DNA from: Pseudomonas fluorescens
GTDB lineage: Bacteria; Pseudomonadota; Gammaproteobacteria; Pseudomonadales; Pseudomonadaceae
Length of the DNA stretch: 64,000 bases
Assembly: GCF_001623525.1 (NCBI RefSeq)
Contig: NZ_CP015225.1
Coordinates: 2,914,001 to 2,978,000, forward strand
Reading direction: 5' to 3'
The notes below the pieces were generated by a model. It did no database searches. It saw nothing but the letters and a program-made list of their open reading frames with translations, and was not told where the DNA came from. A program made the translations under genes and the position numbers. This document shows, in pieces, positions 34,357 through 53,200 of this stretch; positions within the stretch are counted from its first letter, which is position 1, and every line of letters starts with the position of its first letter.

Positions 34357-34692
34357 TCAATTCACTTCCAGCTTGTCACGGTTCCTGTCGAGAATCGCCT
34401 TGCCGATCCCCTTGACCTCCAACAACTCCTCCACCGAAGAGAACGGCCCATTATTCTCCCGATACGCAACAATCGCCTCGGCCTTGCCCTTCCCTATTCC
34501 TGACAGCTCGCGCTGCAGCGTGGCAGCATCCGCCCCGTTTAAATCCACCTTGGTACTCTGCGTTTTGGCTGGCTGCTCCACTGCTTGCGGCGTAGCGACC
34601 ACCTCAGGCTTGACCACTGGGGCCGCGATAGCAGCAATCGAGGCGCTGGTGAGAAAGGCAAAAACCAGAGAGTAGAAATAGCCTGTACGCAT
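34357..34692 (-). CDS. ComEA-type helix-hairpin-helix protein
   Basis: A 111-residue exported protein: signal peptide (1-24, ending IAA), a Pro/Val/Lys linker, then two helix-hairpin-helix motifs (DLNGADAATLQRELSGIGKGKAEAIVAYR and FSSVEELLEVKGIGKAILDRN). It binds double-stranded DNA and is the ComEA-like protein that follows wbpM in Pseudomonas. The stretch upstream of its ATG is duplicated at 43830-43944, where a four-codon fragment of this gene's start is found. Confidence 0.88.
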   Translation of the reverse strand: MRTGYFYSLVFAFLTSASIAAIAAPVVKPEVVATPQAVEQPAKTQSTKVDLNGADAATLQRELSGIGKGKAEAIVAYRENNGPFSSVEELLEVKGIGKAILDRNRDKLEVN

Positions 34693-34694
34693 AA

Positions 34695-35090
34695 ATGACG
34701 CTCCATGACATCGTTAAGAGAGAAGCAGCTTTTCCGAAGCTGCCTCTCAAACTTAGGCGATGAGGTGTCGCTGTCAAAAATGTGTACGTTACAGCGTATG
34801 TAACAATCAGGGTTCGAGACGGCGTTGCTGGTAGATCCAGTCGACAATCTCACCGTCCGGAGAGTAACCACTGACGGTATCGCGAAGCAGTTCACGGCCT
34901 CTGGTGGTCAATCATCCCGCTCGATGGCAATCAGCAATTCCGCCTGCTTGAATGGCTTCGCCACGCAATGCGCCAGCAGATCAACTCGCGCGAGAACCGC
35001 ATCGCGTCCGAGAAGGTCCGCGACATCCACTTTCTGGATGTCATCAACTTTGAGCCGGTCGCTCGCTAAATCTTGAACTTCGGGACGTCG
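34695..35090. repeat. outer copy of the wbpM-3'/comEA-5' direct repeat
   Basis: Same order and orientation as 43819-44090 (inner copy): GACGCTCCATGACATCGTT, a GAGA-AGCAGCTT hairpin, CGCTGTCAAAAA, GTACGTTACA, then the 3' end of wbpM. By eye about four in five bases match. The two copies bracket the flippase-polymerase-acyltransferase block. The gap 34693-35144 holds only this repeat and a wbpM remnant. Confidence 0.85.
34717..34748 (-). terminator. hairpin downstream of wbpM remnant
   Basis: GAGAGAAGCAGCTT pairs with GAAGCTGCCTCTC. It is repeated at 43856-43884 after intact wbpM, so it was probably the wbpM terminator or part of the comEA leader. The T-run is weak, so termination is uncertain. 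Confidence 0.5.
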
Positions 35091-35095
35091 AACCC
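34810..35095 (-). pseudogene. wbpM: wbpM remnant with internal deletion and frameshift
   Basis: On the minus strand, DLASDRLKVDDIQKVDVAD and LLGRDAVLARVDLLAHC match WbpM DLASGRVKVDDIQEVDIAD and the region after it. The frame then jumps to a match with the last ~45 residues (QAELLIAIERDD against LTELLAAIDRDD), hits a stop (TGA), and after a frameshift resumes as RELLRDTVSGYSPDGEIVDW to the normal end RRLEP. About 300 codons between these parts are missing. The catalytic half is lost, so it cannot be functional. It is a diverged second copy, not a fragment of the intact gene at 43.9-45.9 kb. Confidence 0.85.
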
Positions 35096-35144
35096 TCGAG
35101 CACCGCCAAAATCCACTACCGAAGCATAGGGTCAGACGACGATG

Positions 35145-36236
35145 TCATTTCGGTCGGTATGATTTCAATCGTTCAAAACCTCCCGTAAACAGCACCGCAA
35201 TTTTATTACCAATGTGGTCGAGAACGCGTCTTAGCTGCCGCGCCATAGTCCTTTCAAAAACAACATGAATAAACAGAGACATGGCAATCATAAGCGTCAC
35301 TGTCCCCCACAGTAACAAATGCGGATTGACAGCCGGATAGAGCGCGTTAAAGACCATAAAGCCAACATTTTGATGAAGCAAATAGAGTGGATATGTAATT
35401 ACGCCGAGCACCACCCATCTCCGCCCCGCCACCCACCCCATCTTCTTTTTGGCTACAAAACCCATTACTACGTAACTGATAAAAATCGTTGCAGCCACTA
35501 TAACAGCGTCGAAGTCAACGTGATAGTGGCGCTCCAACCTAGGCAGCATATTAATACCTTGATAAATAGCGAACGCGCACGAGCTTATTATCGTCGCCCA
35601 TCTCAACTTCGAAGCGCCGCTCAGCCACACGTGATAAAACATGGCTCCGGCAATGAAGTAAGTTGAGTATTCGGTAATGAAAAACCTCCGCCACCCTCTG
35701 GCATCAGTGAATTCAAGCGCTACGGACAACACGAGCCAAACACACAGTAGCGCCTCTATCCGATGAAGTTGTCGTAATAGCATAACGAGTGCTATCAGGA
35801 AATAAAAACGGATCTCGATAAACAACGACCAATACACGCCGTCAATTGGACGAATATCGAAAAAATCGCCCATCAGCGTCAAGTTACCAAGGTACTGAGG
35901 AGCTGTCGCGGAAAAACGATCTCTGCCCAAAGCAAGCGTCACCACGAAAGTTATTGAACAGCACACCCAGAATGCCGGATAAAGGCGGACCGCCCGCGAT
36001 ATCAAAAACCTCCTGAAACCTTCCCCACCGGCGGTCATCATGATGACAAAACCGCTGATCATGAAAAATAGCTCTACACCCAAATAACCATATTTTGCCA
36101 CAGGTGCTAATAACGGATAAGGCAGGAGCGACCTGTCATCGGCGGCGTAGCCTCGAAATGTATAATGAAAAAAAACTACCGACATAGCAGCTATAAACCG
36201 GAGCAGATCTATCTCATTAATTCGCTTTTGGTTCAT
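35145..36236 (-). CDS. acyltransferase-3 family membrane protein (putative O-acetyltransferase)
   Basis: A 363-residue integral membrane protein of the OafA/YrhL family (PF01757), with about ten transmembrane helices. Motifs seen: LRFIAAMSVVFFHY (~12-25) with the catalytic-type His, GVELFFMISGFVI, the RAVRLYPAFW block, and SLFIEIRFYFL. It has no SGNH domain. By family it moves acetyl groups across or at the inner membrane onto polysaccharide. GC content is lower than the flanking housekeeping genes. It is the last gene of the inserted block on this strand. Confidence 0.88.
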   Translation of the reverse strand: MNQKRINEIDLLRFIAAMSVVFFHYTFRGYAADDRSLLPYPLLAPVAKYGYLGVELFFMISGFVIMMTAGGEGFRRFLISRAVRLYPAFWVCCSITFVVTLALGRDRFSATAPQYLGNLTLMGDFFDIRPIDGVYWSLFIEIRFYFLIALVMLLRQLHRIEALLCVWLVLSVALEFTDARGWRRFFITEYSTYFIAGAMFYHVWLSGASKLRWATIISSCAFAIYQGINMLPRLERHYHVDFDAVIVAATIFISYVVMGFVAKKKMGWVAGRRWVVLGVITYPLYLLHQNVGFMVFNALYPAVNPHLLLWGTVTLMIAMSLFIHVVFERTMARQLRRVLDHIGNKIAVLFTGGFERLKSYRPK

Positions 36237-36638
36237 TTGCCGCCGTTACCTTGCATTTTAAAAGAGCGCATGATACCGAGATATCTGCTTTTATAGAACC
36301 TTTTTGAGTTAGAAGGCCTGCCACAGACTCCCCCGCCCGGCATCACCGCACCAAGCTCTGCGTGAGGTTCTCTCTTCTACTCCGAGCATGGATGAGTGAT
36401 GCTGGCGAAATCAAGCTGTCCGAACAGAAGCGAACCTGCGCCATCGGTGTGCAAATATATGATTCGGGAAGAAGCCGACAAACACTGGCCATCGCGCCGA
36501 CGCAGATCCAGTGATCAAACACACACGCAAGACCTCCGTAGGTACCGATTTGCTACTTATTTTTCATGAGGTTAAACTCGGCGGCCCCGCACATTCAAGC
36601 GGACATTCCATACCATTACGTCAAGGCCCCACGCGCTC
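36237..36638. other. non-coding gap between divergent acyltransferase genes
   Basis: Roughly 400 bases between the two divergent acyltransferase genes. It must hold both promoters, but no clear -35/-10 pair was fixed. Parts of it (36320-36500) look like debris of a coding sequence, such as a mobile-element end, but I could not identify a family. Confidence 0.4.
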
Positions 36639-38537
36639 ATGCATGCATCCCTTCGGTATAGACCAGATATTGACGGATTACGCGCGATCGCCGTTATGGC
36701 TGTCGTACTATTTCATGCATTTCCGACTATTATCCCTGGCGGCTTTATCGGCGTAGATGTGTTCTTTGTTATTTCTGGATATTTAATTACCGGAATCATA
36801 TTGAGTGGTGCTGCAAAGGGCAGATTAAACATCCTGAATTTTTACTCGAGGCGCGTCCGTAGATTGTTTCCGGCGTTAATCCTAGTCCTCTTTTGTTGCA
36901 TGGGGTTTGGTTGGTACTTTTTATTTGACCCAGAGTACAAACAGCTTGGTAAACACGTTGCTTCAGGCATAGGCTTTGTAGCAAATTTGAATTTGTGGAG
37001 CGAGTCCGGTTACTTCGATTCAGCCGCCGAAATGAAGCCACTTCTTCATTTGTGGAGCCTTGGAGTTGAAGAGCAATTCTATCTGATTTGGCCCGTAGTA
37101 GTTTGGATGGGATGGACATTCAGGAAGACTTCCTTAGTTATAATTCCCACTTTGATCCTTGCCTCCTTTATTTACAGCGTCGTGATGGTTGACTCTGATC
37201 CTGCAGGTGCTTTTTACTCACCATTTACGCGGTTTTGGGAGCTTGCATCAGGGGGGGCATTAATCTACGGATATGAATATTTCAAACAGGGCAATACTGC
37301 TCGCACGATTCCGATGTGGATGATTGAGGCGAGCTCAGTCGGCGCGCTCGTTCTGCTGATGTGTGGTTTCATTTTTATTGATAAGAACAAGCAATTCCCG
37401 GGTTTCTGGGCGGTATTGCCTGTGGCGATCTCCTTGTTACTTATTGGTCCGGCAGAAGGGTCCTGGTTAAATCGAAAAATACTGGGTAGCAAATTATTCG
37501 TATCGATAGGCTTACTCAGCTTCCCACTTTATCTTTGGCACTGGCCCCTCTTGTCGTTTGCCACTTTGACAGGCGGCGAGCTTCCAAATGCCGGCTACAG
37601 GGGGGGCGCAATAGCGGTCGCGGTAGTGCTTGCATGGACAACATATAAATATATTGAAACACCCATAAGATATTCCGAGCGCAGAAGCATGGTTGGGATT
37701 CTTGCCTCGTTGGGCTTGATAGTTGGCACCCTCGGCCTTTATGTATATGCCGGCGGTGCCACTCAACTTAGACCGGGCAAAGAAATAGCTGGAGAGATTG
37801 GGCACGAGCAGTTCTTTAACTATCTCACCGATAATTATCAGGTATGCTCAGAACCCAGCATTAGAAGTGGTGCACTGATTTACGAAGGCCATGTGAGGTG
37901 CATGCAGTCAAAGGCCGACTCTAAAATTGACGTGGCGATCATTGGGGATAGTCATGCCGAACATTTATTTAACGGTATGGCAAAGGCATTACCAAGTCTA
38001 AACGTCGCATATTATATTAAGGCCAGCCCACCCTTTGTGAGCAATATAGAATTCAAGGAAATCTATGACTTTCTCGCGCGTGAGGATGGACCAAAGAAAA
38101 TAATCATCACTATGCATTGGATAAAACGTCTTAATCAAGCTCCCGTAGGTTCGACTGTTGAAGACGAGCTTTTCACCTCGGTTGAGAGGTTGCTGGCTAG
38201 CGGCAAAGAGGTGTATTTATTCGACGACGTGCCTAGGTTTCCATTCGACCCTAAGAAGTGCATCACGAAATCTCGGGTCCTAAAAAATGAATGTTCCATT
38301 CCCTTGGCCAATGCTAATAAAGAATTCGATATATACCGAAAGCAACTGCTCAATGTCGTGCAGAGAGAGCCGCGTGTTAAATATGTCCCTATTAGTCAAT
38401 ACGTTTGCCGAAATGGGCAATGCGGCATGACTCGCAATGGTCATCTTCTCTATCGAGATAAAAACCACCTTAATGTTACCGGCTCTAATCTTATAGGTGG
38501 TTCAATAGTGAGGGATAATCCTGACTTGCTTCGTTAG
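36639..38537 (+). CDS. acyltransferase-3/SGNH fusion O-acetyltransferase (OafA/OatA-like)
   Basis: A 632-residue protein. The N-terminal acyltransferase-3 domain (~5-345) begins YRPDIDGLRAIAVMAVVLFHAFP, with the R-x10-H motif, FIGVDVFFVISGYLITGII, RRVRRLFPAL and HLWSLGVEEQFYLIWP. Ten or eleven transmembrane helices follow. The C-terminal SGNH hydrolase-like domain (~400-630) has the Ser motif IIGDSHAEHLF and the Asp-His pair DKNHLN. This is the architecture of OafA-type O-antigen acetylases, which acetylate periplasmic O units. It is on the plus strand, against the rest of the cluster, AT-rich, and abuts an IS66-type remnant right after its stop. Confidence 0.92.
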   Translation: MHASLRYRPDIDGLRAIAVMAVVLFHAFPTIIPGGFIGVDVFFVISGYLITGIILSGAAKGRLNILNFYSRRVRRLFPALILVLFCCMGFGWYFLFDPEYKQLGKHVASGIGFVANLNLWSESGYFDSAAEMKPLLHLWSLGVEEQFYLIWPVVVWMGWTFRKTSLVIIPTLILASFIYSVVMVDSDPAGAFYSPFTRFWELASGGALIYGYEYFKQGNTARTIPMWMIEASSVGALVLLMCGFIFIDKNKQFPGFWAVLPVAISLLLIGPAEGSWLNRKILGSKLFVSIGLLSFPLYLWHWPLLSFATLTGGELPNAGYRGGAIAVAVVLAWTTYKYIETPIRYSERRSMVGILASLGLIVGTLGLYVYAGGATQLRPGKEIAGEIGHEQFFNYLTDNYQVCSEPSIRSGALIYEGHVRCMQSKADSKIDVAIIGDSHAEHLFNGMAKALPSLNVAYYIKASPPFVSNIEFKEIYDFLAREDGPKKIIITMHWIKRLNQAPVGSTVEDELFTSVERLLASGKEVYLFDDVPRFPFDPKKCITKSRVLKNECSIPLANANKEFDIYRKQLLNVVQREPRVKYVPISQYVCRNGQCGMTRNGHLLYRDKNHLNVTGSNLIGGSIVRDNPDLLR

Positions 38538-38540
38538 TGA

Positions 38541-38724
38541 GAGTCGCTGCGGCAGATAGGCGCAGTTGCAGAGCCTTATGTGTGGCTGCGTCACGCACTG
38601 GAGCGCCCGCCCCGGGCATCCTCGGTCAAAATTACGACGCCTTGTTGCCGTGGAACTGCAAACCTAGGCTCCACGGCAAGCGCGCCGTCTACTTTTAACC
38701 AAGTGGGGCGTATGGAGCGCTTAC
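38541..38724 (+). mobile_element. IS66-family transposase 3' remnant and right terminal repeat
   Basis: AEPYVWLRHALERPPRASSV (38568-38627) reads like the C-terminus of the IS66 TnpC transposase; after a frameshift the reading continues as NYDALLPWNCKP (about 38633-38668), the usual TnpC ending. The segment then ends with GGAGCGCTTAC at ~38714-38724, matching the IS66 inverted repeat word GTAAGCG. No left end, no tnpA/tnpB and no complete tnpC are present. It begins right after the acyltransferase/SGNH stop. Confidence 0.75.
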
Positions 38725-38772
38725 CAACTGCTCACCGGAAATGCCACGGTAAATCCGTTATCCCGTTCGGAA

Positions 38773-39978
38773 CTAGGTGCGGTTTACGGGTCGGTTACGA
38801 TTGGACGCGATGTATTGCCCGAAAGAAGACCAGAAGGTTGTACGTCGGGTATCCAATACCGGTTGGTAGTATGACTGGGCTCTTTCGAAATTTTCCCGTG
38901 CCAAACGTAACATCGCTCCGTTATCCTGAAGCAATGCAAGGATCTTGCTCGACAGCGTCGCGTGATCACCCGCCGCGATCATCTCGGAACCCTTTAACAA
39001 CTCGGGTATACCTGCTATTGAAGTAGCAACGGCCGGACAACCGCGACTCATGGCTTCGACCAAAGCGCGAGGTAACCCTTCCTGAAAACTAGGCTGCAGA
39101 TACAAATCGACAGTATCAAGCCATTCGTATATCGCGCTGCCCGAAGGTTTCGTACCGACAAACTTGACCTTTTCATCCACTCCGAGCTTATGAGCCAAAT
39201 CGATATAGGCGCTCGCATCGCCTGAGCCGACTACCTGAAATTCCCATTCAGGAAGCTTTTCATCCGCCAGCGCCATTGCGCGAATGGCCACATCAATCCC
39301 TTTGTATTTGGATGAGTAATTTCCGATTAAGCCGATAACAATTTTTGTTTTATGTGATTCAATACGGCGTTGTCGGGCAAACAACACCTCATCCGCAACA
39401 GGCTGAATGTTCACATTGGAACAAAAAGTAGTCACTCCTACTTTGCATGGGTAGCGTTTTTGTAGAAATTTCTCCGTAACGTATAGAGCAAACGGTGCCG
39501 AAGCTACCGCTTGCCTAGTTTTCAGAGCTTCTATCGGTGCCAGAAACTTTCCTTTCCAACTACCATGGTCCCACAACGAACCCCATGCGCACCCCACCAC
39601 CTCCACTGCGTAGGGTTTTCCTTGTCTTTTAGCTTCTTTAACAAACAAGTGACCCAGTCGACTTGGAAGACGTGCAATCACGCCTTCGGAGTCAGCCACC
39701 AGAGATCGGCAAACGGCCTCCACACCAGCATGGCCTAAAAGCAAGCTCTTTAAATTTGAAATACCAGGAAGCAAGCAAAAATCAACTCCACTTGCGGAAG
39801 ACAGGGTATACCCTTCTTCCCCTTCGATAAGAGCACCACCATCCCGTCCAACGACGGTCAGCGAAGGAAAAACCTGCAGGTAGCGGGGCCATATGGCAGC
39901 AGGCAGTCCTCCCCCGGAGTAATACGCATCACCACGGTATTTGAAAATATGGTCATGAACAAACAGCACGCGCTTCAT
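38773..39978 (-). CDS. glycosyltransferase family 4-type (GT-B) protein
   Basis: A 401-residue GT-B glycosyltransferase. The C-terminal half has [31 protein letters not shown] and the donor-binding EX7E motif in [20 protein letters not shown]. No signal peptide is seen. It likely adds one sugar to the undecaprenyl-linked O unit on the cytoplasmic side. The ATG at 39978 overlaps the stop of the acetyltransferase gene (ATGA), so it is co-translated; upstream extension to 40122 is antisense-like. Specificity unknown. Confidence 0.88.
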
Positions 39979-40544
39979 ACGATACTCTTGATTATTTTCG
40001 CCGGCACTCCCGCAACTATGACGCCGGGGGGCACATCGTTTGTGACAACGGAACCCGCTGCAATGATGGAGCGCTTGCCAATGACAACGCCGGGCAGGAT
40101 ACGCACGCCGCACCCAATCCAAACGTCATCTTCAATGATGACTGGGGCCTTTTCTATCGGGTTATATTTTATAGGCTGGCTCATATCTGACCAAGTGTGA
40201 TTGAACGTAATGATAGACGTTTGATGCGCAATGGACACATCAGCCCCTATCTTCAACCCACCAATAGCATCCAAATAGCAGGAGTCATGTATCGAAACGT
40301 TATTACCCGCTGAAAACTCTGCGGGATTTTTCAGAACTACTGACTTGCCAAAATAGATATTTTTCCCAAAGTGCTTGGCACGACCTGAAACAATACAATA
40401 CCGCAGCAAAACCGCGACTTTACCACCAAAGAGTGAGACCAGATCCCACAAAAACCAGGCGACGAATGAGGGCAGCAACTTAAAGCAAGCTGAAACAACC
40501 CAAATCAAGAAAGAAAAATACTTGAAAAACATCCTACCGTTCAT
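39975..40544 (-). CDS. hexapeptide-repeat acetyltransferase (LbH, WbbJ-like)
   Basis: A 189-residue left-handed beta-helix acetyltransferase. Hexapeptide repeats run from ~60 to ~185 ([19 protein letters not shown] ... [34 protein letters not shown]), ending in [13 protein letters not shown], the usual end for sugar acetyltransferases. It probably acetylates a sugar of the O unit or nucleotide sugar, using acetyl-CoA. The ATG at 40544 has AAGGGG five bases upstream and lies two bases after the polymerase stop; the GTG at 40550 is the alternative. Confidence 0.87.
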
Positions 40545-40546
40545 AA

Positions 40547-41884
40547 TCACCCCTTATTAAGATCAGCACTTCCAGAAGGCCGCCTTAACAAATAATGCGC
40601 CATAAAAACAAACAGAACACACAGTCCGGATATTTTGAAAACCTGAGATAGCAAGTTGGCCAAATCTGCCCGCAGCGCGTATACAAAGGCTGCAAGCGCG
40701 AGGATGTAAAACGCATACCAGTAAAGTGAGCACCATCGGCGATTATAAAGAAATGCGAGCAGCCATGCATAAAAAGCCATTATCAAAACAATACCCGCCA
40801 GACCGCCGACTATGTAACCAAACCCCACTATTGTAAAGCCCCAACCTGACGTGCCATCAAACCCGTGCTCAGGCCTAAATACACGATCGAACCAAGCGAC
40901 GGTACTTTGCACACCATAATCACCCAGCAATGCGGTCGGTACAAAGGCACGCACCACGTCACTGAGCAGAAATGAAATATTTTGGCCAGCATCGAAAACC
41001 AATAGGGAATAGAAATTACGCGAAGAAGACATGAACTCGCTATACAGAATCAAATCTCCACCAAAGCGATCAAAATTCACCGTACCCGACAGCAAAACAC
41101 TCTTGAAATACTGGGACACTGGAACAACAAACAAAAGCGCGCCAAAGATAGCGATCATTTTCAGAAAACTAAAATTCCCACGCCGATCATAATAGATGAT
41201 CATAAAACCGAATAACAGTTTGAACAGACTGTCGCGTTCTCCAGTCAACAACACATAGAACACGCAGAACACCAAATAAAGCATCAAGAATAAATCTTTG
41301 TAAAAAAAGCGTCCTATTCTTGCCGCGCGCAGAAACACAAGAACAGTAAGTATCAGTATCGAAAAATCACTGATTATTTTTACAGAAGAAAAACTGTCCA
41401 GCACTTCGCGCTTTGACGTCGCATCCGAAGTCAGGATGATGGCCAATGAATAAAGAACAAAGGGGAGCGTAAAGACGAACAACAGCCGTTCCGAAGACGT
41501 ACTACGAACCTGCTGAGAACAGAATGTTGAAATCTCCACTTGTCGAGCGTTACTAATCAATAAATTTGAGACCGCAACAAAAACTAGCATTGCGATAAAT
41601 TGCAACCGCAAACTGAGGATCAAAACGCCCTCATCGAATGGTAGATTTTCCGAGCCATACAAATAAGCACGCAACGGGAAAAACGTAAAATACACGGACA
41701 TAAAAGCCAAAGGAAATACCCTTGGATCCGCCACGCCTTTTTTCGCGTAAAGGAAAACGATTAACCCTGTATAACAATACACCAACGTGACTATGACCGG
41801 AATAGAGTCGACCACACCGATTAGAAAAAGCATGAAAATGCCAAACAGAAACACTTGCAATTTCGAAACTAAACTATTCATCAT
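40547..41884 (-). CDS. putative O-antigen polymerase (Wzy-like)
   Basis: A 445-residue, very hydrophobic protein with about ten to twelve transmembrane helices and a larger extracytoplasmic loop near residues 250-340 (containing [21 protein letters not shown] and [15 protein letters not shown]). Sequence similarity among polymerases is low, so the call rests on topology, length, and position next to the flippase. It would join lipid-linked O units in the periplasm. It is the only polymerase candidate in the region. Low GC; tightly spaced with the genes on either side. Confidence 0.72.
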
Positions 41885-41893
41885 TCACCACAT

Positions 41894-43354
41894 TCATCGC
41901 TTGGCTACAAGCTTGAGAACTCCAAGCTCTTCTTTCAGGCACCTTGCAAATACGACCAACACCACTCCGAATGAAACGGCATAAATCAGGCTGGACACAA
42001 CAAACCCCAAGAGCGGACTTTTAATATCAATAAACCGATTTAAAAACATGAAAATCAGAAGCGAAATTGAAAATAAACCGAGCACTTTGAGATGACGAAG
42101 GAATACTCCCCCCACGTTAAACTTCAGTATTCTCCAGACAAGCATCATCATCATCAGATAATTGAGAACTATCGCCACCACCACACCTACCGAGGCCCCT
42201 ATCAAGCCCCATCCACTTCCCAATACCACGAGTACCACAACAGAGAGAGCGTAAAGGAATTGAATGCCCGCACGGGCATAGACTTTCCCAACCGCCATCG
42301 TTAAGCAATCACTAAATTTATAGCCAATTCTGAAATACAAACCGATTGACATAACCTCTATCAGTCTTGCTACCTCACCCCATCCATCACCGAAGAGAGC
42401 ACCTATCAGCTGATCAGAAAAAATATAGATATAGCCGCTCAGATATACAAATATAAGCAATGAAAAATAAATCGAAGAGAGGTATAGCCGTTCAAGTGCC
42501 TCATTATTATTCTGCATTTTTGCCATCAGTGGGAAAAACACCTTATCCACTACACTGCCAAATAAGATCGCGGGCATGGACATGATTTGATAGGCCCGCC
42601 CATAGAGCCCAACCGACTCGGCGCCGAGGAGCTTACCTACAACGAGGTTATCCCCCTGGCCTGCGGCATAGTTACAGAGCCGGGCCATCGAGTAGCCTAC
42701 GCCGAAGTCCAACATCCCCTTAGCGCTGGGGTAGCTAAAACCGATCTTCGCGGCATCCCTGCACAGTATCAGTATCAATATCAGAAAAATTATCGACTGA
42801 ATCCAGAATGCGGCAACCAAGGACCACATACCATATCCATGCAGCGCCATGTAAACCGAAACGCCGCCATAAGCAACCAGATAACTTGAAAACGTAACAC
42901 TCGACAACTTCTTGAATTCGAAGCGTCGTTGAAGCAACGATTGCCCTACCACAGAATATGAAATGACGGGCAGCATCCAAGCCAGTGTTCTCAATACTTC
43001 CGTCAGCTCTGGCATACTAAAAAAAAATGAAAAACTTTCAGCTGAAAAATATAAAGACATGGCCAGAATGACGCCCAACAGCAAAGACATCGAATTGGCT
43101 GTTTTGATGTCCACCGAGGATATTTCTTCTTTTTGAACCAGAGCAGGCCCTACTCCGACCTCAGAAAAAATCCTCAAAAACGCTATGATAGCGGCACCAA
43201 TGCCAACGACCCCAAATTCTACTGGCGTCAGGATTCGAGCTAGGATGAGAATTGAAATGAGCTGTACGGCGTTTTGACCAGCGGTCCCCAATAACAACCA
43301 AAAAAAACCACTTCTACTTTTTTCATTGGCCGTACTTATTGCTTTTGTCTTCAA
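41894..43354 (-). CDS. lipopolysaccharide flippase, Wzx/MOP superfamily
   Basis: A 486-residue polysaccharide-export flippase with about twelve to fourteen transmembrane helices. The N-terminal SGFFWLLLGTAGQNAVQLISILILARILTPVEFGVVGIG pattern and PALVQKEEISS match the MOP group (WzxC-like). It would flip undecaprenyl-PP-linked O units to the periplasm. No good ATG exists; TTG at 43354 is chosen because AAGGA is six bases upstream, TTG at 43360 being the alternative. It is the first gene of the inserted block read toward the polymerase. Confidence 0.87.
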   Translation of the reverse strand: MKTKAISTANEKSRSGFFWLLLGTAGQNAVQLISILILARILTPVEFGVVGIGAAIIAFLRIFSEVGVGPALVQKEEISSVDIKTANSMSLLLGVILAMSLYFSAESFSFFFSMPELTEVLRTLAWMLPVISYSVVGQSLLQRRFEFKKLSSVTFSSYLVAYGGVSVYMALHGYGMWSLVAAFWIQSIIFLILILILCRDAAKIGFSYPSAKGMLDFGVGYSMARLCNYAAGQGDNLVVGKLLGAESVGLYGRAYQIMSMPAILFGSVVDKVFFPLMAKMQNNNEALERLYLSSIYFSLLIFVYLSGYIYIFSDQLIGALFGDGWGEVARLIEVMSIGLYFRIGYKFSDCLTMAVGKVYARAGIQFLYALSVVVLVVLGSGWGLIGASVGVVVAIVLNYLMMMMLVWRILKFNVGGVFLRHLKVLGLFSISLLIFMFLNRFIDIKSPLLGFVVSSLIYAVSFGVVLVVFARCLKEELGVLKLVAKR

Positions 43355-43818
43355 AGTCAATCCTTGTATTTATTACAAACTTACATTATCAAGCAAAGCG
43401 ATACACAATCCAAACTGCAATCGCTTGATGACTTCCGGCCTAGAAATGCCAGAGGCTCTGATTACGTGCTCAGTAAACGACACATCGTGCCTTTTTATGC
43501 GGAAACTGTCCATCTGAAGGATGGTGTCTACGATTTTCTCCAGGCACGGACCGCTGTGTGCTCAAAATCCTTGGCACTCGAAGGCCAGGCCGGGCTTGAT
43601 AATTGGGATGATTCTTGAATAGGCCGATCTGCGACCAGCCCACGGGCCTGGCGAGGCCGGACCAAACCACGTCAAACGACCGCTATGGGCATGCACAAAA
43701 TACTATGGGACTGAACGTACCGGCTCTGTCTAACCTGAAAGGAAGGGTTGCAGCATTGCTCAACGCAGCAGGCCTAGAAATGGGCTTCATAGATCACAAT
43801 GGCGCCTACCTCATTAGT
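43355..43818. other. unassigned gap between flippase gene and wbpM junction
   Basis: About 460 bases with no gene I can support. A possible coding tail on the plus strand (VAALLNAAGLEMGFIDHNG, ending at ~43827) has no recognised family. AT content falls from left to right. It could hold the flippase operon promoter or leftovers of the insertion event. Confidence 0.4.
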
Positions 43819-44090
43819 TGCCTCTAAGCATTGAGACGCTCCATGACATCGTTGAGAGAAAGCAGCTTTCCGAAGCTGCTTCTCAAATATAAGTGATGGT
43901 GAAACGCTGTCAAAAACCTGCACGTTACAACATGTCAGATATGTTAAGGCTCAAGGCGACGCTGTTGATAAATCCAATCGACAATCTCGCCATCCGGGGC
44001 ATATCCACTCACCGTATCCCTAAGCAACTGTCGAACCCTGGCGTAATCATCACGGTCAATGGCAGCGAGCAGCTCGGTCAAGCTGGCCTT
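43819..44090. repeat. inner copy of the wbpM-3'/comEA-5' direct repeat
   Basis: Matches 34695-34960 in order and orientation. Starting at 43830 going left, ATGCTTAGAGGC aligns with the first four codons of comEA (ATGCGTACAGGC), then similarity stops near 43818. Going right it runs through the same hairpin (43856-43884) into the 3' end of intact wbpM. This places the insertion junction just inside comEA. Confidence 0.82.
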
Positions 44091-45938
44091 CAGCAGCTCC
44101 CAAGGCAGGTGATCCTCATTGGCGCTCATGATCATAGGGTGTTGAGTCGCGACAACGTTGTTGCCGATCAGCAGTTCTTCGTAGAGCTTCTCTCCAGGAC
44201 GCAGGCCAGTGAATTCTATCGAAATGTCCCCGTGGGGATTTTTTTCGGAGCGAACACTTAAACCTGACAGGTGGATCATTTTTTCTGCTAACTCGATGAT
44301 TTTTACCGGCTCGCCCATATCTAAAACAAATACGTCCCCACCCAACCCCATGGAGCCCGCTTGGATTACCAACTGAGCGGCTTCAGGAATTGTCATGAAA
44401 TAACGCGTGATCTTGGGGTGCGTAACGGTCAGAGGCCCCCCGGATTTGATCTGTTTGTGAAACAGGGGAATTACTGAACCGGAAGAGCCTAGTACGTTAC
44501 CAAATCGAACCATAGTGAAGCGGGTCTTATTGACCCGTGAGACGTTCGCCCTGTCGCCAAATAATACGGGGGCTAGCTCTCGACTGAGGGCTTGTAAAGT
44601 CAGCTCTGCGAGTCTCTTCGTACTTCCCATCACATTGGTGGGTCGAACTGCCTTGTCAGTCGAGATAAGCACAAAATTTGACACCCCCGCCTGCAATGCG
44701 GCCTGCGCGGTATTAAGCGTTCCGATTACGTTGTTCAGAACGCCTTCCGCAATATTGTGCTCTACCATGGGCACGTGCTTATAAGCCGCGGCGTGATAGA
44801 CCGTGTTGACGCTCCAAGTCTTCATCACGTCCAGCAATTTGTTCTCATCCCGTACCGATCCCAGAATCGGCAACACCCTTACAGACAAGGATTCCCGGGC
44901 TATTCGGGGTTCAAGTTCAGACAAAATGCTATAAAGATTGAATTCGCTATGCTCATAAAGCAACAGTGTAGTGGGTTGAAGGGCCAGGATTTGTCGGCAC
45001 AATTCAGAGCCGATCGACCCGCCGGCACCGGTCACCAATACCGATTGCCCTGCTATACAATGCTCCAACAGATCAGCCTGGGCCGGTACGGAGTCACGCC
45101 CAAGTAAATCCGCAATGTCCACCTCTTGGATGTCATCCACCTTGACCCGACCGCTTGCCAGATCCATGAATCCCGGAACACTGCGAACGTGTAACGGGAA
45201 CCCCTCCAGTAATGTCAGTATTTCCCTACGACGACCGCGTGACGAAGAAGGAACGGCCAACAGGATTTCCTGCGCGCCGGTCGCGTCAATCATCTTCTGG
45301 ATATGTTTGGGTTGATAGACCTGCAATCCTGCGATAACCCGGTCAGCGATACTCCGATCATCATCAATGAATGCAACAGGCCTCATCACCCTCCCCATAC
45401 GCAGTGCGGCGACAAGCTGGTTGCCTGCCGCACCCGCACCGTAAATCGCAACCTTGGGCAGACCATCATCGCGATTCGCAAATGGCACATGCTGGGCTGC
45501 GGAGAACCAATCGCCCAGGAAATATTGCCGCATCACCAAGCGCAGGCCGCCAAGCATGATGAGGCTCAGCCACCAGAAATTGAAAATGATAGATCGCGGT
45601 ACCAAGGTCGTATGGTTGCTGTACCAATACACCACAAGCGCCAATAGCAACGCCGAAAGACTGACGGCCTTGCTAATGGTAATCAACGCATCATTGCCGA
45701 AATAGCGCATCACCGCGCGGTACATTCCGAAACGAATGAAAATTGGAATCGCGATCACCGGGGCAGACGCAAAAAGCCAGAGATGGGTCTCGATGGGGGT
45801 AGCCCATATGTCAATACCTAACCGGACGACAAAAGCCAACCAGAGCGCGGCCCAGACTAAAACCACATCCGTGGCCACCTGGATTGCCCGCTTATGACGT
45901 CTGGGCAGCCCCAGCAACGCTGTTCTTACTTTATCCAT
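43944..45938 (-). CDS. wbpM: WbpM: UDP-GlcNAc C6 dehydratase / C4,C6 nucleotide-sugar enzyme
   Basis: A 664-residue inner-membrane protein. Four N-terminal transmembrane helices (~20-125) precede two Rossmann domains: a CoA-binding-like one with IYGAGAAGNQL (~140) and the catalytic one with VTGAGGSIGSEL (~290). The dehydratase triad is S-M-K rather than S-Y-K, seen as STDKA and NVMGSTK, as in WbpM/FlaA1 relatives. It converts UDP-GlcNAc to the 4-keto-6-deoxy intermediate for D-QuiNAc and FucNAc. The start is the ATG at 45938. It is 114 bases after wbpL. Confidence 0.94.
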   Translation of the reverse strand: MDKVRTALLGLPRRHKRAIQVATDVVLVWAALWLAFVVRLGIDIWATPIETHLWLFASAPVIAIPIFIRFGMYRAVMRYFGNDALITISKAVSLSALLLALVVYWYSNHTTLVPRSIIFNFWWLSLIMLGGLRLVMRQYFLGDWFSAAQHVPFANRDDGLPKVAIYGAGAAGNQLVAALRMGRVMRPVAFIDDDRSIADRVIAGLQVYQPKHIQKMIDATGAQEILLAVPSSSRGRRREILTLLEGFPLHVRSVPGFMDLASGRVKVDDIQEVDIADLLGRDSVPAQADLLEHCIAGQSVLVTGAGGSIGSELCRQILALQPTTLLLYEHSEFNLYSILSELEPRIARESLSVRVLPILGSVRDENKLLDVMKTWSVNTVYHAAAYKHVPMVEHNIAEGVLNNVIGTLNTAQAALQAGVSNFVLISTDKAVRPTNVMGSTKRLAELTLQALSRELAPVLFGDRANVSRVNKTRFTMVRFGNVLGSSGSVIPLFHKQIKSGGPLTVTHPKITRYFMTIPEAAQLVIQAGSMGLGGDVFVLDMGEPVKIIELAEKMIHLSGLSVRSEKNPHGDISIEFTGLRPGEKLYEELLIGNNVVATQHPMIMSANEDHLPWELLKASLTELLAAIDRDDYARVRQLLRDTVSGYAPDGEIVDWIYQQRRLEP

Positions 45939-46052
45939 AACTACCTTCACGCACCCTGACCGGGCTCTAATGCATCCATTACTGAAGTACGTTGTGAATC
46001 CGTTGCCCATTGGACAATTGCCAAACAGAAAAAACCATCCAGCAGTCTGGAG

Positions 46053-47069
46053 TCATACCTTCTCGAGCTCCCCGGCATGAAATCTAACGGCCAGGAATAC
46101 CAGCGGCGCATAAGCCACTGTCAGTGCTAACCCTCCATCAACATTCCACCATACGACACAAGCGGCCAGGGGTAGGAGCCAGAATAGATTAATGGCACCG
46201 ACGGCGAGCGTCACTGGTAAATGACGCCCGTACTGGCGTGAGGCGAACTGATAGGCATGGCTGCGATGAGCTTCGTATACCTTGTCGCCCCGCAGGAGGC
46301 GTCTCATAAGGGTGACGGTGGCATCCACGATAAAGACACCCAGTAAAATCAGCCACACCCATAGAAGCTTCGGAGAAACCCAAGCGGCTTGCAAGGAAAG
46401 CAGCCCAAGGATGATTCCCAGAAACCCACTGCCCGCATCGCCCATGAAGATACGTGCAGGGGGAAAATTCCAGTAAAGAAAACCCGCGACTACCATCGCC
46501 AACATCAGCGGCGCCAAAATAAGACCGTTAAATCCACCCAACCAGTAAATGGCGCATGCGCCGAGGCAAACGCATATCGCCTCCACGCTAGCGATACCAT
46601 CGATACCATCCATGAAGTTATAGAGATTGAGCATCCACACCAAATAAACGACCGCCAGTACGTGTCCAACCCAACTCAACGCAAACTCATGACCAAACAA
46701 GTTAATCGTGGGCAGACCACCTAGCCAACATAACGCCCAAATTGCAGCTGAGAAATGGCCAAGCAACCTCCAGCGAGCTGCTATGTGACCGTGGTCGTCC
46801 AGAAAGCCGAGAACAGCGACCCCGATACCCGCTCCCAACATCGCCCAGGCCGCGGTCCAAGACAGAAAATCGTTGCCTGCAAGTAGCGGCAGCGCCAAAA
46901 GAAAGACGATGACAAATGCCAAGCCGCCCCCCCGGGGTGTGGGTATGGTGTGTGAACTACGTCCCCCCGGGATGTCGATAATGTTCTTATGAATGGCATA
47001 TGAACGCAAAACCCAGGTTAATACCAATGAGGCACCGGTGCTGAGCAAAAGGAAAGCAAATATTTTCAT
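46053..47069 (-). CDS. wbpL: WbpL: undecaprenyl-phosphate sugar-1-phosphate transferase
   Basis: A 338-residue integral membrane protein of the MraY/WecA (GT4 PNPT) family with about eleven transmembrane segments. Motifs seen: RSSHTIPTPRGGG (substrate loop), GFLDDHGH (the DDxxD-like pair), YNFMDGIDGIA with the catalytic Asp, GDAGSGFLG, and LRGDKVYEAHRSHAYQ with the HIHH-like loop. It starts the O unit by transferring a QuiNAc- or FucNAc-1-phosphate to undecaprenyl phosphate; it may also serve A-band. Its ATG overlaps the wbpV stop by one base. Confidence 0.93.
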   Translation of the reverse strand: MKIFAFLLLSTGASLVLTWVLRSYAIHKNIIDIPGGRSSHTIPTPRGGGLAFVIVFLLALPLLAGNDFLSWTAAWAMLGAGIGVAVLGFLDDHGHIAARWRLLGHFSAAIWALCWLGGLPTINLFGHEFALSWVGHVLAVVYLVWMLNLYNFMDGIDGIASVEAICVCLGACAIYWLGGFNGLILAPLMLAMVVAGFLYWNFPPARIFMGDAGSGFLGIILGLLSLQAAWVSPKLLWVWLILLGVFIVDATVTLMRRLLRGDKVYEAHRSHAYQFASRQYGRHLPVTLAVGAINLFWLLPLAACVVWWNVDGGLALTVAYAPLVFLAVRFHAGELEKV

Positions 47070-48061
47070 TACAAAACACGCCCATGCTTAGACATTTCAC
47101 TTTTTTGCATTATATATTTACGACCGGACTGACGCAGCGCATCAATCACCGAGATGGGCGGAGTCCAACCCAGCAGGTTACGAGCCTTCGATGAATCAAT
47201 AACCAATGAACCACATAGCTGCGTGTAGGTTGATTGTTTCCGAAAGATCCTAGCACCAGTACGGAGTAAAAAATCAGGTACCGAAATGAGTCGAGGTTTC
47301 AGTCCCATGCCCTGGGCCAGAGCAGTTATCATCTCGCTTGTAGACACCGGCCTGATATCCGACACCAGAAACAGCTCGTTAGCCGCTGCAGGGTGTTCGA
47401 TGCAAAGACAAATAAAGTCAACCAGGTTTTCCAGCGAAATTAGGCTTCTAAGATTTTTTATAGCGCCGAAGGGTAAAGGCAAGCCCTTGGACACCAAACG
47501 CATCAAACGCTGGTAATTGCCCGGGGCATTCGCCGCATAAACCAAGGGTGGCCGAATAACCACCAACTCCATCGAACCTTTTTCTACCAGAGCTCGCAAT
47601 GCACATTCAGCTTCCAGCTTGGATACAGCATAGTCCGCATGCGGTTGTGGAGCTGCATCCTCATTAAATGGAGCGGAATATGTTACAGAACCGTTAACCC
47701 CGATAGAGCTAACGAAAATGAATCTTTTGGCTCCAGCCTCCATTGCCTGACGCGCCAGGTCAATTGTAGCTTCAACGTTAACGAGCCTGAATTCATGCAG
47801 AGGCCGTTCAGATTTCTCATCTAATATGTGCGCCCGTCCCGCCAAATGAATAACAGTCGCCCCCTTACTAATAGATAAAGGACGCTGAAAGGGCTTCTCA
47901 GACGGCACGACAACCTGATCTACACCCGATAAAAAACAGTCAACCTTTTTTCGAACCAACAACGTTAACTTATAATCTGAATTACCTTGCAGTTTTTCGA
48001 CTAGAGCCCGACCAACGAATCCTGTTGCGCCGGTTACAACTATGCTCTTTGGCAAGTTCAA
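47069..48061 (-). CDS. wbpV: WbpV-like UDP-sugar 4-reductase (SDR)
   Basis: A 330-residue extended SDR with the NAD(P) motif VTGATGFVGRAL (~8-19), the S of VSSIGVNG, and the catalytic pair YAVSK. Beside wbpL and wbpM it matches WbpV, which reduces the 4-keto product of WbpM to UDP-D-QuiNAc. The ATG at 48061 overlaps the upstream glycosyltransferase stop by four bases. The final specificity (QuiNAc rather than FucNAc) is inferred from family and order. Confidence 0.85.
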   Translation of the reverse strand: MNLPKSIVVTGATGFVGRALVEKLQGNSDYKLTLLVRKKVDCFLSGVDQVVVPSEKPFQRPLSISKGATVIHLAGRAHILDEKSERPLHEFRLVNVEATIDLARQAMEAGAKRFIFVSSIGVNGSVTYSAPFNEDAAPQPHADYAVSKLEAECALRALVEKGSMELVVIRPPLVYAANAPGNYQRLMRLVSKGLPLPFGAIKNLRSLISLENLVDFICLCIEHPAAANELFLVSDIRPVSTSEMITALAQGMGLKPRLISVPDFLLRTGARIFRKQSTYTQLCGSLVIDSSKARNLLGWTPPISVIDALRQSGRKYIMQKSEMSKHGRVL

Positions 48062-49188
48062 GTTTCAGCCTCAAGTGCTTGATAGACATCCAAATGGACT
48101 TTCACCACATTTTCAATGGCGAACTCACGCTCCGCCCACTTCCTTCCAGCACGACCCATTTCATGCCTTAACTCTGCATTCGAAACCAATTTCTCAATCG
48201 CGATCGCTAATGCTTCGGCGTCTTTAACCGGCACAAGCAGTCCGGTTTCTCCCGCTATAATAGCATCACGGCAGCCGGGAACGTCAGACGTGACAACAGG
48301 CCGCGCACAGGCCGCCGCCTCGATCAGGACTTTTGGTAATCCTTCTCGATAAGAGGGCAAGACTACAATATGCGAACGAGAGAATATCTTGGCCAAATCA
48401 CTCTGATAACCGAGTACACGTACATTCCCTTCGACTGTCAGGGCCTCTACCTCAGTACTGGAAAGGCTGGTGGGGTTGCCTTCATCCACATCACCGACCA
48501 GTTGAAAGACCACATCGTTCTGACGACGTTTGACTAATTGAGCGGCCTTGATAAATTCATGGACACCCTTATCCCTAAGGAATCGTCCTGCAAACGTAAC
48601 GGTTATCGTGCCGATTGGCTCTGGCAAAACCGGATAAGAAGCCAGATGGACCCCCGAGCCACGAATCAACACCGTCTTATCAGCATCCAAACCGCTCATC
48701 TTCATCACCAGGGCGCGGTCACAAGGGTTCTGAAAGATCGCCCGAAGATTGTGAGCGCCCAGCGCTAATCGATACATACGGCTCAAAACAAACGACAGAA
48801 CTTTCGACCGCAAGTCTCTTCCAATAAACACAGAACCCATGCCAGCGATGGCGGATACAACCCCCCCGACAGGAGCGAGGCGAGCAGCCATCCCCCCATA
48901 AAGAACCGGCTTAGTCGTCACCAAATGCAAAAGAGTCGGCCGTAGACGCCAAAGCAATCTCACGAACGATATCATCGCAAAGAACTCAAGGAGTGGGTTA
49001 ATACCGCCGCGCTCTAACTTGATCGTGTGATAAATAAAGCCTTCTTCAATAACTTTTCCTGACAATGGGCTCGCAATGCTCGCAACGTGCACTGCATAGC
49101 CCTTCCCTTGGGCTGCCTTGGCTATCGGCAATCGGTGCGACAAAAAATACCGCGGATCATTGACTACAATTAGCAGTATCCGGCTCAT
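48058..49188 (-). CDS. glycosyltransferase family 4-type (GT-B) protein
   Basis: A 376-residue GT-B enzyme of the WbpT/WbpU/CapM type, opening MSRILLIVVNDPRYFLSHRLPIA. Donor-site residues are GRFLRDKGVHEFIKAA and the EX7E in REGLPKVLIEAAACARPVV. It probably adds the second sugar (for example GalNAcA) to lipid-linked QuiNAc. The ATG at 49188 has a very strong GGGGGAGGG directly upstream. Between it and wbpP lies a 266-base spacer with a hexanucleotide tandem repeat, where other Pseudomonas strains carry wzx and further transferases. Confidence 0.87.
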   Translation of the reverse strand: MSRILLIVVNDPRYFLSHRLPIAKAAQGKGYAVHVASIASPLSGKVIEEGFIYHTIKLERGGINPLLEFFAMISFVRLLWRLRPTLLHLVTTKPVLYGGMAARLAPVGGVVSAIAGMGSVFIGRDLRSKVLSFVLSRMYRLALGAHNLRAIFQNPCDRALVMKMSGLDADKTVLIRGSGVHLASYPVLPEPIGTITVTFAGRFLRDKGVHEFIKAAQLVKRRQNDVVFQLVGDVDEGNPTSLSSTEVEALTVEGNVRVLGYQSDLAKIFSRSHIVVLPSYREGLPKVLIEAAACARPVVTSDVPGCRDAIIAGETGLLVPVKDAEALAIAIEKLVSNAELRHEMGRAGRKWAEREFAIENVVKVHLDVYQALEAET

Positions 49189-49296
49189 CCCTCCCCCACA
49201 TAAACTGTCAAATTAAAAATATATCCACTTGAAGACCATACACTCTTACATCAACCAAGAATAAATCGTGCAATCTACAGCTGACAGCCACAGCCC

Positions 49297-49365
49297 CAGC
49301 ATCAGCATCAGCATCAGCATCAGCATCAGCATCAGCATCAGCATCAGCATCAGCATCAGCATCAG
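49297..49365. repeat. hexanucleotide tandem repeat (CATCAG)11
   Basis: Eleven perfect CATCAG units fill 49300-49365, with a half unit (CAG) at 49297-49299. It lies ~110 bases upstream of the minus-strand glycosyltransferase start and ~90 bases after the wbpP stop, so it would be transcribed within the operon. Perfect repeats of this length can gain or lose units by slippage. It is non-coding on the operon strand. Confidence 0.95.
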
Positions 49366-49454
49366 AGTGCATCAAACCATACTTGCTGAAGACAACTCTT
49401 CCAAAGTCAGAATGACTGGATACATTTCTAATAGAGACATCAAATCAGCGCCCA

Positions 49455-50477
49455 TCAAACGTTTTTCAGATACCAAGGCATCGCCAGTCTCAAGCCCTCA
49501 GCGACGCTATAATCGGGAACGTAGCTCAAATTATTTTTTATCTTTTCAATACTTGCCTGGGAATGCAGGACATCTCCAGCCCTGAAGTCTTTATATACAG
49601 GCTCCTTTGCATAATTTACGCCCAAATCTGCCAACATAGCCTTCAACATGGAAAACAACTCTTCCAGGCTCGTTCGTGCGTTTACCGCCACATTGTAAAC
49701 ATTATTCAAAGCATAGTTTTTTTCTTCGGTTGCAGCCAGAAGATTGGCCTGAACAACGTTCTCGATAAAACAAAAATCTCGGCTTGTTGAACCATCTCCG
49801 TTAATATTGATGTTCTCATCCAAAATCATCGCCGCGGCCCATTTAGGTATCACGGCAGCATAGGCCCCATTCGGGTCCTGCCTTTTTCCAAACACATTGA
49901 AATAACGCAAGCCGATCGTGTTGAAACCATAGCTCTTGTAAAAAACATCGGCATACAGCTCATTAACATATTTCGTTACGGCATAGGGCGAAAGAGGTTT
50001 ACCGATGACGTCTTCGACTTTTGGCAGAGCCGGATGATCGCCATAAGTAGAACTACTCGCCGCATAAGTGAAGCTTTTTACCCCCGCATCACGGGCAGCA
50101 ACCAACATATTCAAAAAACCATCTATATTAGATGCGTTAGTAAGAATGGGATCGGCCAATGACCTGGGAACAGAGCCCAATGCCGCTTCATGGAGTACAT
50201 AATCGACGCCTTCGCACGCGTTTCGACAATCATCCAGAGTGCGTATGTCTCCAACTTTTAACGTGAAACGAGCCCATTGATCAGCTGAAACTTCGCCCTT
50301 GACCTCATCAAGATTTCGCTGATGGCCAGTAGCAAAGTTATCAAGACCGATGACGCTCTGATCCAGTTTTAACAGCGTCTCAAGCAGGTTAGAACCTATA
50401 AACCCCGCAACACCAGTAATGAGCCATACACGCGGGCTCTTCGGGAGAGTGGCAACCAGCTCATTATATCGACTCAT
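49455..50477 (-). CDS. wbpP: WbpP: UDP-GlcNAc C4-epimerase
   Basis: A 340-residue extended SDR, WbpP length. NAD motif [13 protein letters not shown] (~20-32), catalytic Ser in AASSSTYGD and YAVTK (~167), plus the [15 protein letters not shown] block typical of WbpP/VipB. It interconverts UDP-GlcNAc and UDP-GalNAc (and the uronic acids). The ATG at 50477 has GGAGGT close upstream; the in-frame start at 50513 is less likely. It follows wbpO by about 40 bases. Confidence 0.92.
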
Positions 50478-50519
50478 ACGACCTCCAAATTCATTCTGCA
50501 AAACAATAGACATGTATAA

Positions 50520-51815
50520 TTAAAGTCGGATATCCGACTCATCATTATCAAGCAGATATTTAAGGTCATAAAGCACGTGATTTGCCTTGCCTAATGAGCG
50601 AATGTGACGGGACCCCATATCGGCAAACTGAGAGTGCGCGACGGCCAGAACAATAGCGTCATACGAATCTGGAGCAGGCGTGGAAAGCAGCTTAATTCCA
50701 TATTCGTGCTCTGCCTCCTCAGCCGCTGCCCATGGATCAAAAACGTCGACAACGATATTATAGTCAGCCAGCTCACTAATGATGTCGATAACTCGCGTAT
50801 TTCTTAAATCCGGGCAATTCTCTTTAAACGTAAGCCCCATTATCAATACTCGTGCACCGTCCACGTGTATGCGTTTCTTAACCATCGCCTTCACGAGTTG
50901 GGAAACGACGTATTCTCCCATGCTGTCATTGAGGCGCCGCCCGGCCAGGATAATCTCCGGATGGTAACCGATGGACTGTGCTTTGTGCGTCAGATAGTAA
51001 GGATCTACGCCAATACAGTGACCGCCCACCAAACCAGGACGAAACGGTAAAAAGTTCCACTTGGTTCCTGCGGCCTTCAGAACAGACTCCGTGTCAATGC
51101 CCAGCTTATTGAAAATAATCGCCAACTCATTGATTAGCGCGATATTCAGATCCCGCTGAGTATTCTCGATGACTTTAGCAGCTTCAGCGACTTTTATTGA
51201 ACTGGCTTTATGTGTTCCGGCAATGATAATTTTCTTATACAGATTATCAATTTTTGTGGCCACTTCCGGCGTGGAGCCCGATGTCACTTTTTTGATCGTG
51301 GTGACACGATGCTCTTTATCGCCTGGATTGATCCTTTCAGGACTATATCCAACGTAGAAATCCGAATTAAATTTCAGGCCCGATACACGCTCTAAAACTG
51401 GGACGCAGTCCTCTTCGGTTGCCCCGGGATACACAGTTGACTCGTAAATTACTACGTCACCTTTTTTTAACACACTCCCAATAGTCTCAGACGCCTTCAA
51501 CAACGGAGTCAAATCCGGATTGTTATACTGATCTATGGGCGTTGGAACGGTCACTATGAAGATATTACAATTACTTAGTTTCTCCACACTGGTGGAGAAC
51601 TGCAGATTCTTAGCCTCGCCCAGCTCTTGCTCACTGACTTCGAGCGTCGAATCTCGACCTCCACTCAGCTCTTCAATCCGACGCTCACTGATATCGAAAC
51701 CCAAAACGGAATAGTGCTTGCCAAACTCCACAGCAAGAGGCAGCCCCACATAACCCAAGCCTACGATTCCAAGTTTTACATTTTCAAAGTCTTGATTATT
51801 CAATTTCACATCCAC
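50520..51815 (-). CDS. wbpO: WbpO/TviB: UDP-GlcNAc/GalNAc 6-dehydrogenase
   Basis: A 431-residue nucleotide-sugar dehydrogenase. N-terminal Rossmann [13 protein letters not shown] (~16-28), [16 protein letters not shown], the central Asn/Lys region, the catalytic Cys in [14 protein letters not shown] (~267), and a C-terminal UDP-binding domain ([19 protein letters not shown]). This identifies the TviB/WbpO subgroup, which oxidises UDP-GalNAc/GlcNAc to the uronic acid. It heads the sugar-nucleotide part of the cluster, next to wbpP. Confidence 0.93.
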
Positions 51816-53021: not shown

Positions 53022-53200
53022 GGGAAGCCTCGCTTGGCATTGCGTTCGTGTACACACCAAACGCATCAAAAGGCAAGACGGGCAAGGCCGTGTCGGATAT
53101 AGCGGCAAACTGAGCTAGATTAAATACGAACAAAACGCACCCAAAGTCAGAAAAATTGCAGATAGTGATCCTTACCAAGACTTCCGGGCCACACATCCAT

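Follow-up and report, generated by a model that had tools for sequence, protein, structure and literature searches.

How did the junction between wbpM and comEA come to be present twice in one Pseudomonas fluorescens O-antigen locus, with the flippase and polymerase genes lying between the two copies? The locus lies in a 64,000-nucleotide stretch of DNA (the window), and the initial annotation had read the two junctions as direct repeats left by integration of foreign DNA carrying its own wbpM-comEA end. Alignment confirmed the repeat: outer positions 34681-34929 match inner positions 43820-44064 in direct orientation over 252 columns (74% nucleotide identity, E 2e-34), and a local alignment extended the match to outer 34936 and inner 44071 with a score of 232; none of 200 shuffles of two-base blocks scored above 39. 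A second pair, outer 34966-35072 and inner 45058-45164, is 70% identical. The significant similarity expected from the base-by-base alignment was therefore present, though in two pieces rather than as a single continuous stretch. As two separate outer pieces match distant inner stretches, about 1 kb is missing from within the outer wbpM. The copies differ at 26-30% of positions, rather than at about one base in five as first estimated; a recent tandem duplication, from which near-identical copies would be expected, is ruled out by their 70-74% identity. The elements of the two junctions are as follows, with native and foreign as assigned from the sequence comparisons described below.

34357..34692, minus strand: intact comEA, native (TIGR00426, above cut-off; 91.7% nucleotide identity to G039)
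34693..34806, minus strand: outer leader with hairpin, native (97.7-98.4% identical to G039, G334, G254 and G169)
34807..35084, minus strand: outer wbpM relic with an internal deletion of ~1 kb, a frameshift and a missing 5' part (tblastn pieces; trees)
43361..43819, no strand: filler of 459 bp, source not found (89.7% identical to P. zanjanensis)
43820..43831, minus strand: second comEA, its first four codons only
43832..43943, minus strand: inner leader, foreign (at most 75% global identity to compared rows except P. zanjanensis)
43944..46010, minus strand: intact inner wbpM of a foreign lineage, 688 aa (PF02719; best 80% nucleotide identity over 43820-45050, 398 genomes)

Read outward, the outer copy runs from the wbpM relic through the leader into intact comEA, and tblastn showed that the pseudogene retains residues ~279-320 and ~646-688 (numbered as in the window), plus a frameshift. 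The inner copy does keep the first four comEA codons (43820-43831), as initially described. Beyond them lies the filler, which gave no Pfam match in its two open frames and, besides its own genome, just one 46-bp match in another among 398 genomes of the genus (designated here by G numbers). A filler without an identified source is a point against the explanation that we prefer, in which two clusters were stacked.

The close relatives include genomes with an uninterrupted junction, so that the finding which would have spoken against the initial reading, a lack of such genomes, did not occur. A single wbpM lies directly before comEA in G169 and G039 (comEA 96% and 93% identical at the amino acid level), while G325 and G334 (95% and 94%) have wbpM directly before comEA plus a second wbpM upstream. 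Among 70 genus relatives, wbpM and comEA are no more than 400 bp apart in 45 (manual count); in 15 they are separated by 1.4-19 kb or, in G006, a second comEA lies farther on; and in the remaining 10 they are far apart or on different contigs. The same arrangement as in the window, relic included, was found in P. zanjanensis SWRI12, where the relic is 90.6% identical, most cluster genes are 95-97% identical and comEA is 91% identical. Since the arrangement is common to both, the event is either older than the species split or was passed between them.

The two copies differ sharply in their affinities. Over 129 columns that take in the start of comEA, the outer leader shares 98.4% identity with G039 and G334 and 97.7% with G169 and G254, as anticipated for relatives with wbpM directly before comEA that should lie closer to one copy. 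The inner leader, in global alignments with gaps counted, reaches at most 75% to all compared rows except P. zanjanensis (94.6%), its best local stretch being 86.6% to G010 over 97 columns; inner and outer leaders are 72% identical globally and 81% locally. At the whole-gene level, wbpM genes of G169, G039, G254 and G325 are mutually 88.5-92.1% identical and that of G334 is 83.0-85.2% identical to them, while the inner wbpM is only 77.7-79.6% identical to these five; over 43820-45050, its best nucleotide identity among the matches listed from the 398 genomes, its own aside, was 80%.

In the first and second wbpM trees, the relic clustered with the comEA-proximal wbpM of G254, G249, G325, G039 and G169 (UFBoot 100), and in a third tree of 22 rows it grouped with G039, G169, G325 and G254 (UFBoot 88). 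The first tree included G222_1 and G381_1, in which an in-frame stop upsets the codon alignment, and G024_1; all three were left out of the second. Treating the inner wbpM as native was rejected in the third tree (AU p 0.019). Because the placement of the inner wbpM shifted among the three trees, we name no donor, and wbpM itself seems to be mosaic. The leader identity of about 98% and the grouping of the relic with relatives, set against an inner wbpM at 80% or less, indicate that the outer relic, leader and comEA are native and that the inner wbpM and leader are from a foreign lineage. The differing identities of both leaders and wbpM to relatives thus bear out the initial view that the donor was another lineage. 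A clean cluster replacement that left nothing of the former cluster is ruled out by the native wbpM relic at 34807-35084.

The junction could instead have been duplicated in place and then diverged. Sisterhood of inner and outer wbpM was not rejected by AU tests (p 0.138 in the second tree and 0.111 in the third), a grouping that survives because the relic is short and that counts against our preferred explanation, as does the shifting placement of the inner wbpM. Divergence in place would, however, have to account for an intact inner wbpM this far from native genes that closely resemble one another, and for an outer leader that has stayed near-identical to relatives and is so unlike the inner one. 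We therefore regard in-place duplication as very improbable.

We next considered what the stacking of two clusters would have left in terms of gene content. In transcription order, the locus runs ihfB, wzz, tviB, tviC, a gene-free 266 bp, a GT4 gene, a wbpV-like gene, wbpL, wbpM and the leader with the start of comEA; then the 459-bp filler, wzx, wzy, a hexapeptide transferase, a second GT4 gene and an IS66 relic; and finally AT3-SGNH (on the opposite strand), AT3, the wbpM relic, the leader and comEA. The features outside the two junctions are:

35145..36236, minus strand: acyltransferase, AT3 family (PF01757; 52% amino acid identity to G125)
36639..38537, plus strand: AT3-SGNH acyltransferase (PF01757, PF19040)
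38571..38671, plus strand: remnant of an IS66 transposase, 3' end, frameshifted (E 4e-7 in tblastn, G046 transposase as query)
38726..38753, no strand: short piece, 28 nt identical to an IS66 end in G006
38773..40122, minus strand: GT4 glycosyltransferase, GTa (PF13692, PF00534)
39975..40550, minus strand: hexapeptide transferase (PF00132)
40547..41884, minus strand: Wzy, O-unit polymerase (TIGR04370, above cut-off)
41894..43360, minus strand: Wzx, flippase (PF13440, PF01943)
46053..47069, minus strand: wbpL-like initiating transferase (PF00953)
47069..48061, minus strand: wbpV-like epimerase/reductase (PF01370)
48058..49188, minus strand: GT4 glycosyltransferase, GTu (PF00534)
49189..49454, no strand: empty slot (five open frames, including a flippase, at the same place in G035)
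49455..50513, minus strand: tviC-like epimerase (PF01370; PRK15181 match below cut-off)
50520..51815, minus strand: tviB-like dehydrogenase (PRK15182, above cut-off)
51972..53108, minus strand: wzz chain-length regulator (PF02706)
53452..53748, minus strand: ihfB, the upstream border (TIGR00988)

The true start of GTa is probably inside the listed frame, since that frame overlaps the next gene, and Wzy (40547-41884) gave no Pfam match. The claim that the region's only flippase and polymerase lie between the copies held from ihfB to comEA, where no other candidate for either was found among open frames of at least 180 aa. The locus follows ihfB and wzz and includes wbpL and wbpM, as a Pseudomonas OSA locus does, and as judged by sequence alone it encodes Wzx, Wzy, Wzz and an initiating transferase. 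It departs from that layout in that wbpM is not the last gene: wzx, wzy, a glycosyltransferase and acyltransferases lie beyond the inner copy. A single Rfam match in the analysis, to sR1, was far under the gathering score and was taken as chance.

Relatives of this Wzy at E 1e-40 or better were found in two of the 398 genomes besides its own, and also in P. zanjanensis; a scan of genome contigs with the Wzy alignment gave 3 loci, and a protein search gave 30 Wzy relatives. The genome of Pseudomonas sp. LB-090624 (G125) carries nearly the gene set of the window in one unsplit cluster, in the order ihfB-wzz-(second wzz-like)-wzx-wzy-GTa-tviB-tviC-GT-wbpV-wbpL-wbpM-AT, at 44-76% amino acid identity. 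There, wzx-wzy-GTa stands before tviB; in the window it stands after wbpM. G125 has no AT3-SGNH counterpart and its AT gene follows wbpM, which counts against our preferred explanation. In G035, the tviC-GT interval that is empty in the window is filled by the five open frames. Given the unsplit set in G125 and the filled slot in G035, the split cluster of the window plausibly amounts to one complete pathway.

A doubled wbpM is not confined to the window. A wbpM DNA search at 1e-100, scoring two candidates per genome, gave two matches in 19 of 398 genomes, and in 13 of these 19 a second wbpM copy or its remains lies at the comEA locus. The copies are distributed as follows:

Second wbpM or remains at the comEA locus: G046, G123, G173, G222, G249, G254, G325, G334, G358, G381, G385
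Main wbpM copy on a different contig, with remains next to comEA: G179
Both wbpM copies on the comEA contig, the nearer one 3.4 kb away: G322
Tandem wbpM pair on a contig without comEA: G384
wbpM copies on different contigs: G026, G116, G328, G414
wbpM copies 289 kb apart: G018

Shorter wbpM remains were found at fetched loci of G055, G312, G204, G131 and G006, the last of which also has a wbpL relic and two comEA copies. Together, at least 19 of 398 genomes, the window's included, carry at the comEA locus either a second wbpM or a relic of this kind, a lower bound on genomes and not on independent events, several of which may share one origin. The second copies range from intact to truncated, and the relatives look like several stages of one process:

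Intact wbpM pairs about 150-640 bp apart: G334, G254, G385, G249
Intact wbpM pairs with more DNA between: G325, G358, G173, G123
Frameshifted wbpM: G046, G381
Truncated wbpM: G222, G131, G179, G312, G204, G055, window

The clearest neighbor case is G123, in which wzz-tviB-tviC ... wbpV-wbpL-wbpM1 is followed by 8.4 kb and then by a wbpL relic, wbpM2 and comEA, as would be expected had one cluster been stacked onto another's tail. G312 and G204 have wbpM1 almost directly after wzz (accompanied in G204 by a wbpL relic), and about 17 kb on a wbpM relic precedes comEA; genes for a Wzy_C protein (PF04932), for sugar enzymes and for a glycosyltransferase lie in the G312 interior, as does a weak flippase match (PF01943, below cut-off). 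The window looks like an intermediate outcome to which parts of both clusters contribute.

A comEA start after the upstream wbpM was also found in G222 (~111 nt), G381 (~54 nt) and G006 (whole), and part of the leader is kept there in G312 and G204; in ten of 17 loci tested, the window and P. zanjanensis aside, neither a comEA start nor a leader follows the upstream wbpM. One rival explanation is a single-crossover (Campbell-type) integration, in which circular or excised DNA that bears an internal fragment running from wbpM to comEA, together with the wzx-wzy-GT-acyltransferase block, enters the wbpM-comEA junction. Of the two copies, the upstream one should then keep wbpM whole with comEA cut, and the downstream one the reverse, and the anatomy of both the window and G222 is exactly as predicted. 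This route would, however, make the inner wbpM native, contrary to its 77.7-79.6% identity to native genes and the AU test (p 0.019), and the intact tandem pairs that lack a comEA piece (G334, G254, G385, G249) require no circle. Nor was a circular carrier seen: Wzy had no match in 72,556 plasmid records, and the 304 that matched Wzx were all below 60% identity, none covering 80% of it, so that a plasmid origin of the block was rejected. On balance, we find Campbell-type integration rather unlikely.

The IS66 traces suggest another route, in which transposition brought the wzx-wzy-GT block behind wbpM. A relic does lie in the block, and of 35 loci scanned, four of them without any wbpM-comEA interval, 8 had IS66 sequence between the upstream wbpM and comEA, the window and P. 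zanjanensis representing a single event. The relic at 38571-38671, the sole site of IS66 tblastn matches in the window (G046 transposase query), is nevertheless interior, with no IS copies at the two block ends, so that a composite IS66 transposon is not supported either, and transposition would leave the duplicated wbpM-comEA ends unexplained. We regard this route as very improbable. An IS66 end adjoins the truncated wbpM in G222, and this, with the 8 of 35 loci, suggests that insertion sequences may help wbpM deletions. In P. aeruginosa O5, IS407 lies between wbpL and wbpM.

We consider it probable that the ihfB-comEA locus is the remains of two stacked O-antigen clusters that then partly decayed. 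Donor DNA that ended in a wbpM-leader-comEA fragment of its own would have entered the locus by recombination and left the resident wbpM-comEA end in place, and the resident wbpM, now redundant, would then have been stripped of its 5' part and of about 1 kb of its interior. Through losses that complemented each other, the two clusters would have been reduced to one split but complete Wzx/Wzy pathway, the upstream share supplying precursors, initiation and wbpM and the downstream share the flippase, polymerase, glycosyltransferase and acylation, with the IS66 relic marking one seam within the block. The interior block may be either incoming DNA or the rest of an older resident cluster; of the integration proposed initially, the foreign origin of the inner wbpM stands and that of the block is possible.

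More tentatively, it is possible that exchange of O-antigen clusters in Pseudomonas often proceeds by stacking beside comEA, foreign wbpM-leader-comEA end included, and not by clean replacement, with complementary decay yielding split or permuted hybrids, so that the state of the outer wbpM (intact pair, frameshifted, truncated or stub) would be a fossil record of exchanges, and a route to new surface types. If so, past changes of surface type can be read from the locus, and split hybrid clusters are to be expected. Where annotation takes wbpM as the end of the cluster, wzx and wzy located farther on can be overlooked. According to the available parts of two reports, phages and tailocins use O-antigen as a receptor in environmental pseudomonads (PMC10715155, PMC9213528).

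The window shares with the Pseudomonas OSA locus its described border genes, wzz and wbpM (PMC6804347), and resembles the OBC3 cluster, which P. protegens acquired horizontally, in being a rearranged, acquired O-polysaccharide cluster, although OBC3 sits elsewhere in the genome (PMC10715155). The accessible portions of these accounts mention neither a second wbpM nor wzx or wzy between wbpM and comEA for either locus (PMC6804347, PMC10715155), and we found no description of a doubled wbpM at comEA in the open-licence literature, as far as its accessible text extends. Cluster exchange that leaves remnants is known in Salmonella, and in that accessible literature we found this Pseudomonas form undescribed. 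As set out in the available part of the Salmonella account, O-antigen groups D2, B1 and D1 have hybrid clusters formed by inter-cluster recombination, with gene remnants, an IS-like (H-repeat) remnant at a junction and decay by serial deletion, a picture that the window resembles (PMC3715488). It differs in that the Salmonella locus is galF-gnd, for which the same part describes no doubled border gene beside a fixed flank and no decay series (PMC3715488). Within the genus, the excerpted account of P. aeruginosa ST111 describes a serotype switch from O4 to O12 by replacement of the native cluster, likewise with an O-antigen cluster that was transferred horizontally and recombined; in the window, unlike in that replacement, the native end stays and decays (PMC11637443).

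The leader between wbpM and comEA, present in the window as an outer copy (34693-34806) and an inner copy (43832-43943), contains a hairpin; a TTGACA-like stretch in it is likewise conserved across many of the aligned species. Where DNA has been inserted, this leader remains with comEA. A comparison of the leader with Rfam returned no family.

In G006 (locus L046), comEA is present whole in two copies, ~9.3 kb apart and 82% identical at the nucleotide level, with a wbpL relic preceding the second. Six genomes (L110, L111, L112, L119, L124 and L126) carry a second type of wbpM, 78-79% identical in amino acids to that of the window and linked to wbpV-wbpL; a wbpM of the 91-93% type lies downstream of it and adjoins comEA. 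Both appear intact and both may be functional. In G010 (L066/L088), a fragment of the wbpM 3' end and IS66 sequence lie upstream of an intact wbpM, hinting that relics may occur on the other side too.

P. syringae PA-4-7F (L095/L062) has genes related to wzx, wzy and GTa of the window, at 61-65% amino acid identity; they lie upstream of wbpM-comEA and in the orientation opposite to wbpM.

Elsewhere in the window, five sites of ~90-190 bp share a palindromic repeat and are similar to one another:

19472-19657, dispersed palindromic repeat
22110-22240, dispersed palindromic repeat
26391-26523, dispersed palindromic repeat
32536-32666, dispersed palindromic repeat
62525-62615, dispersed palindromic repeat

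These repeats look like REPIN-type elements.
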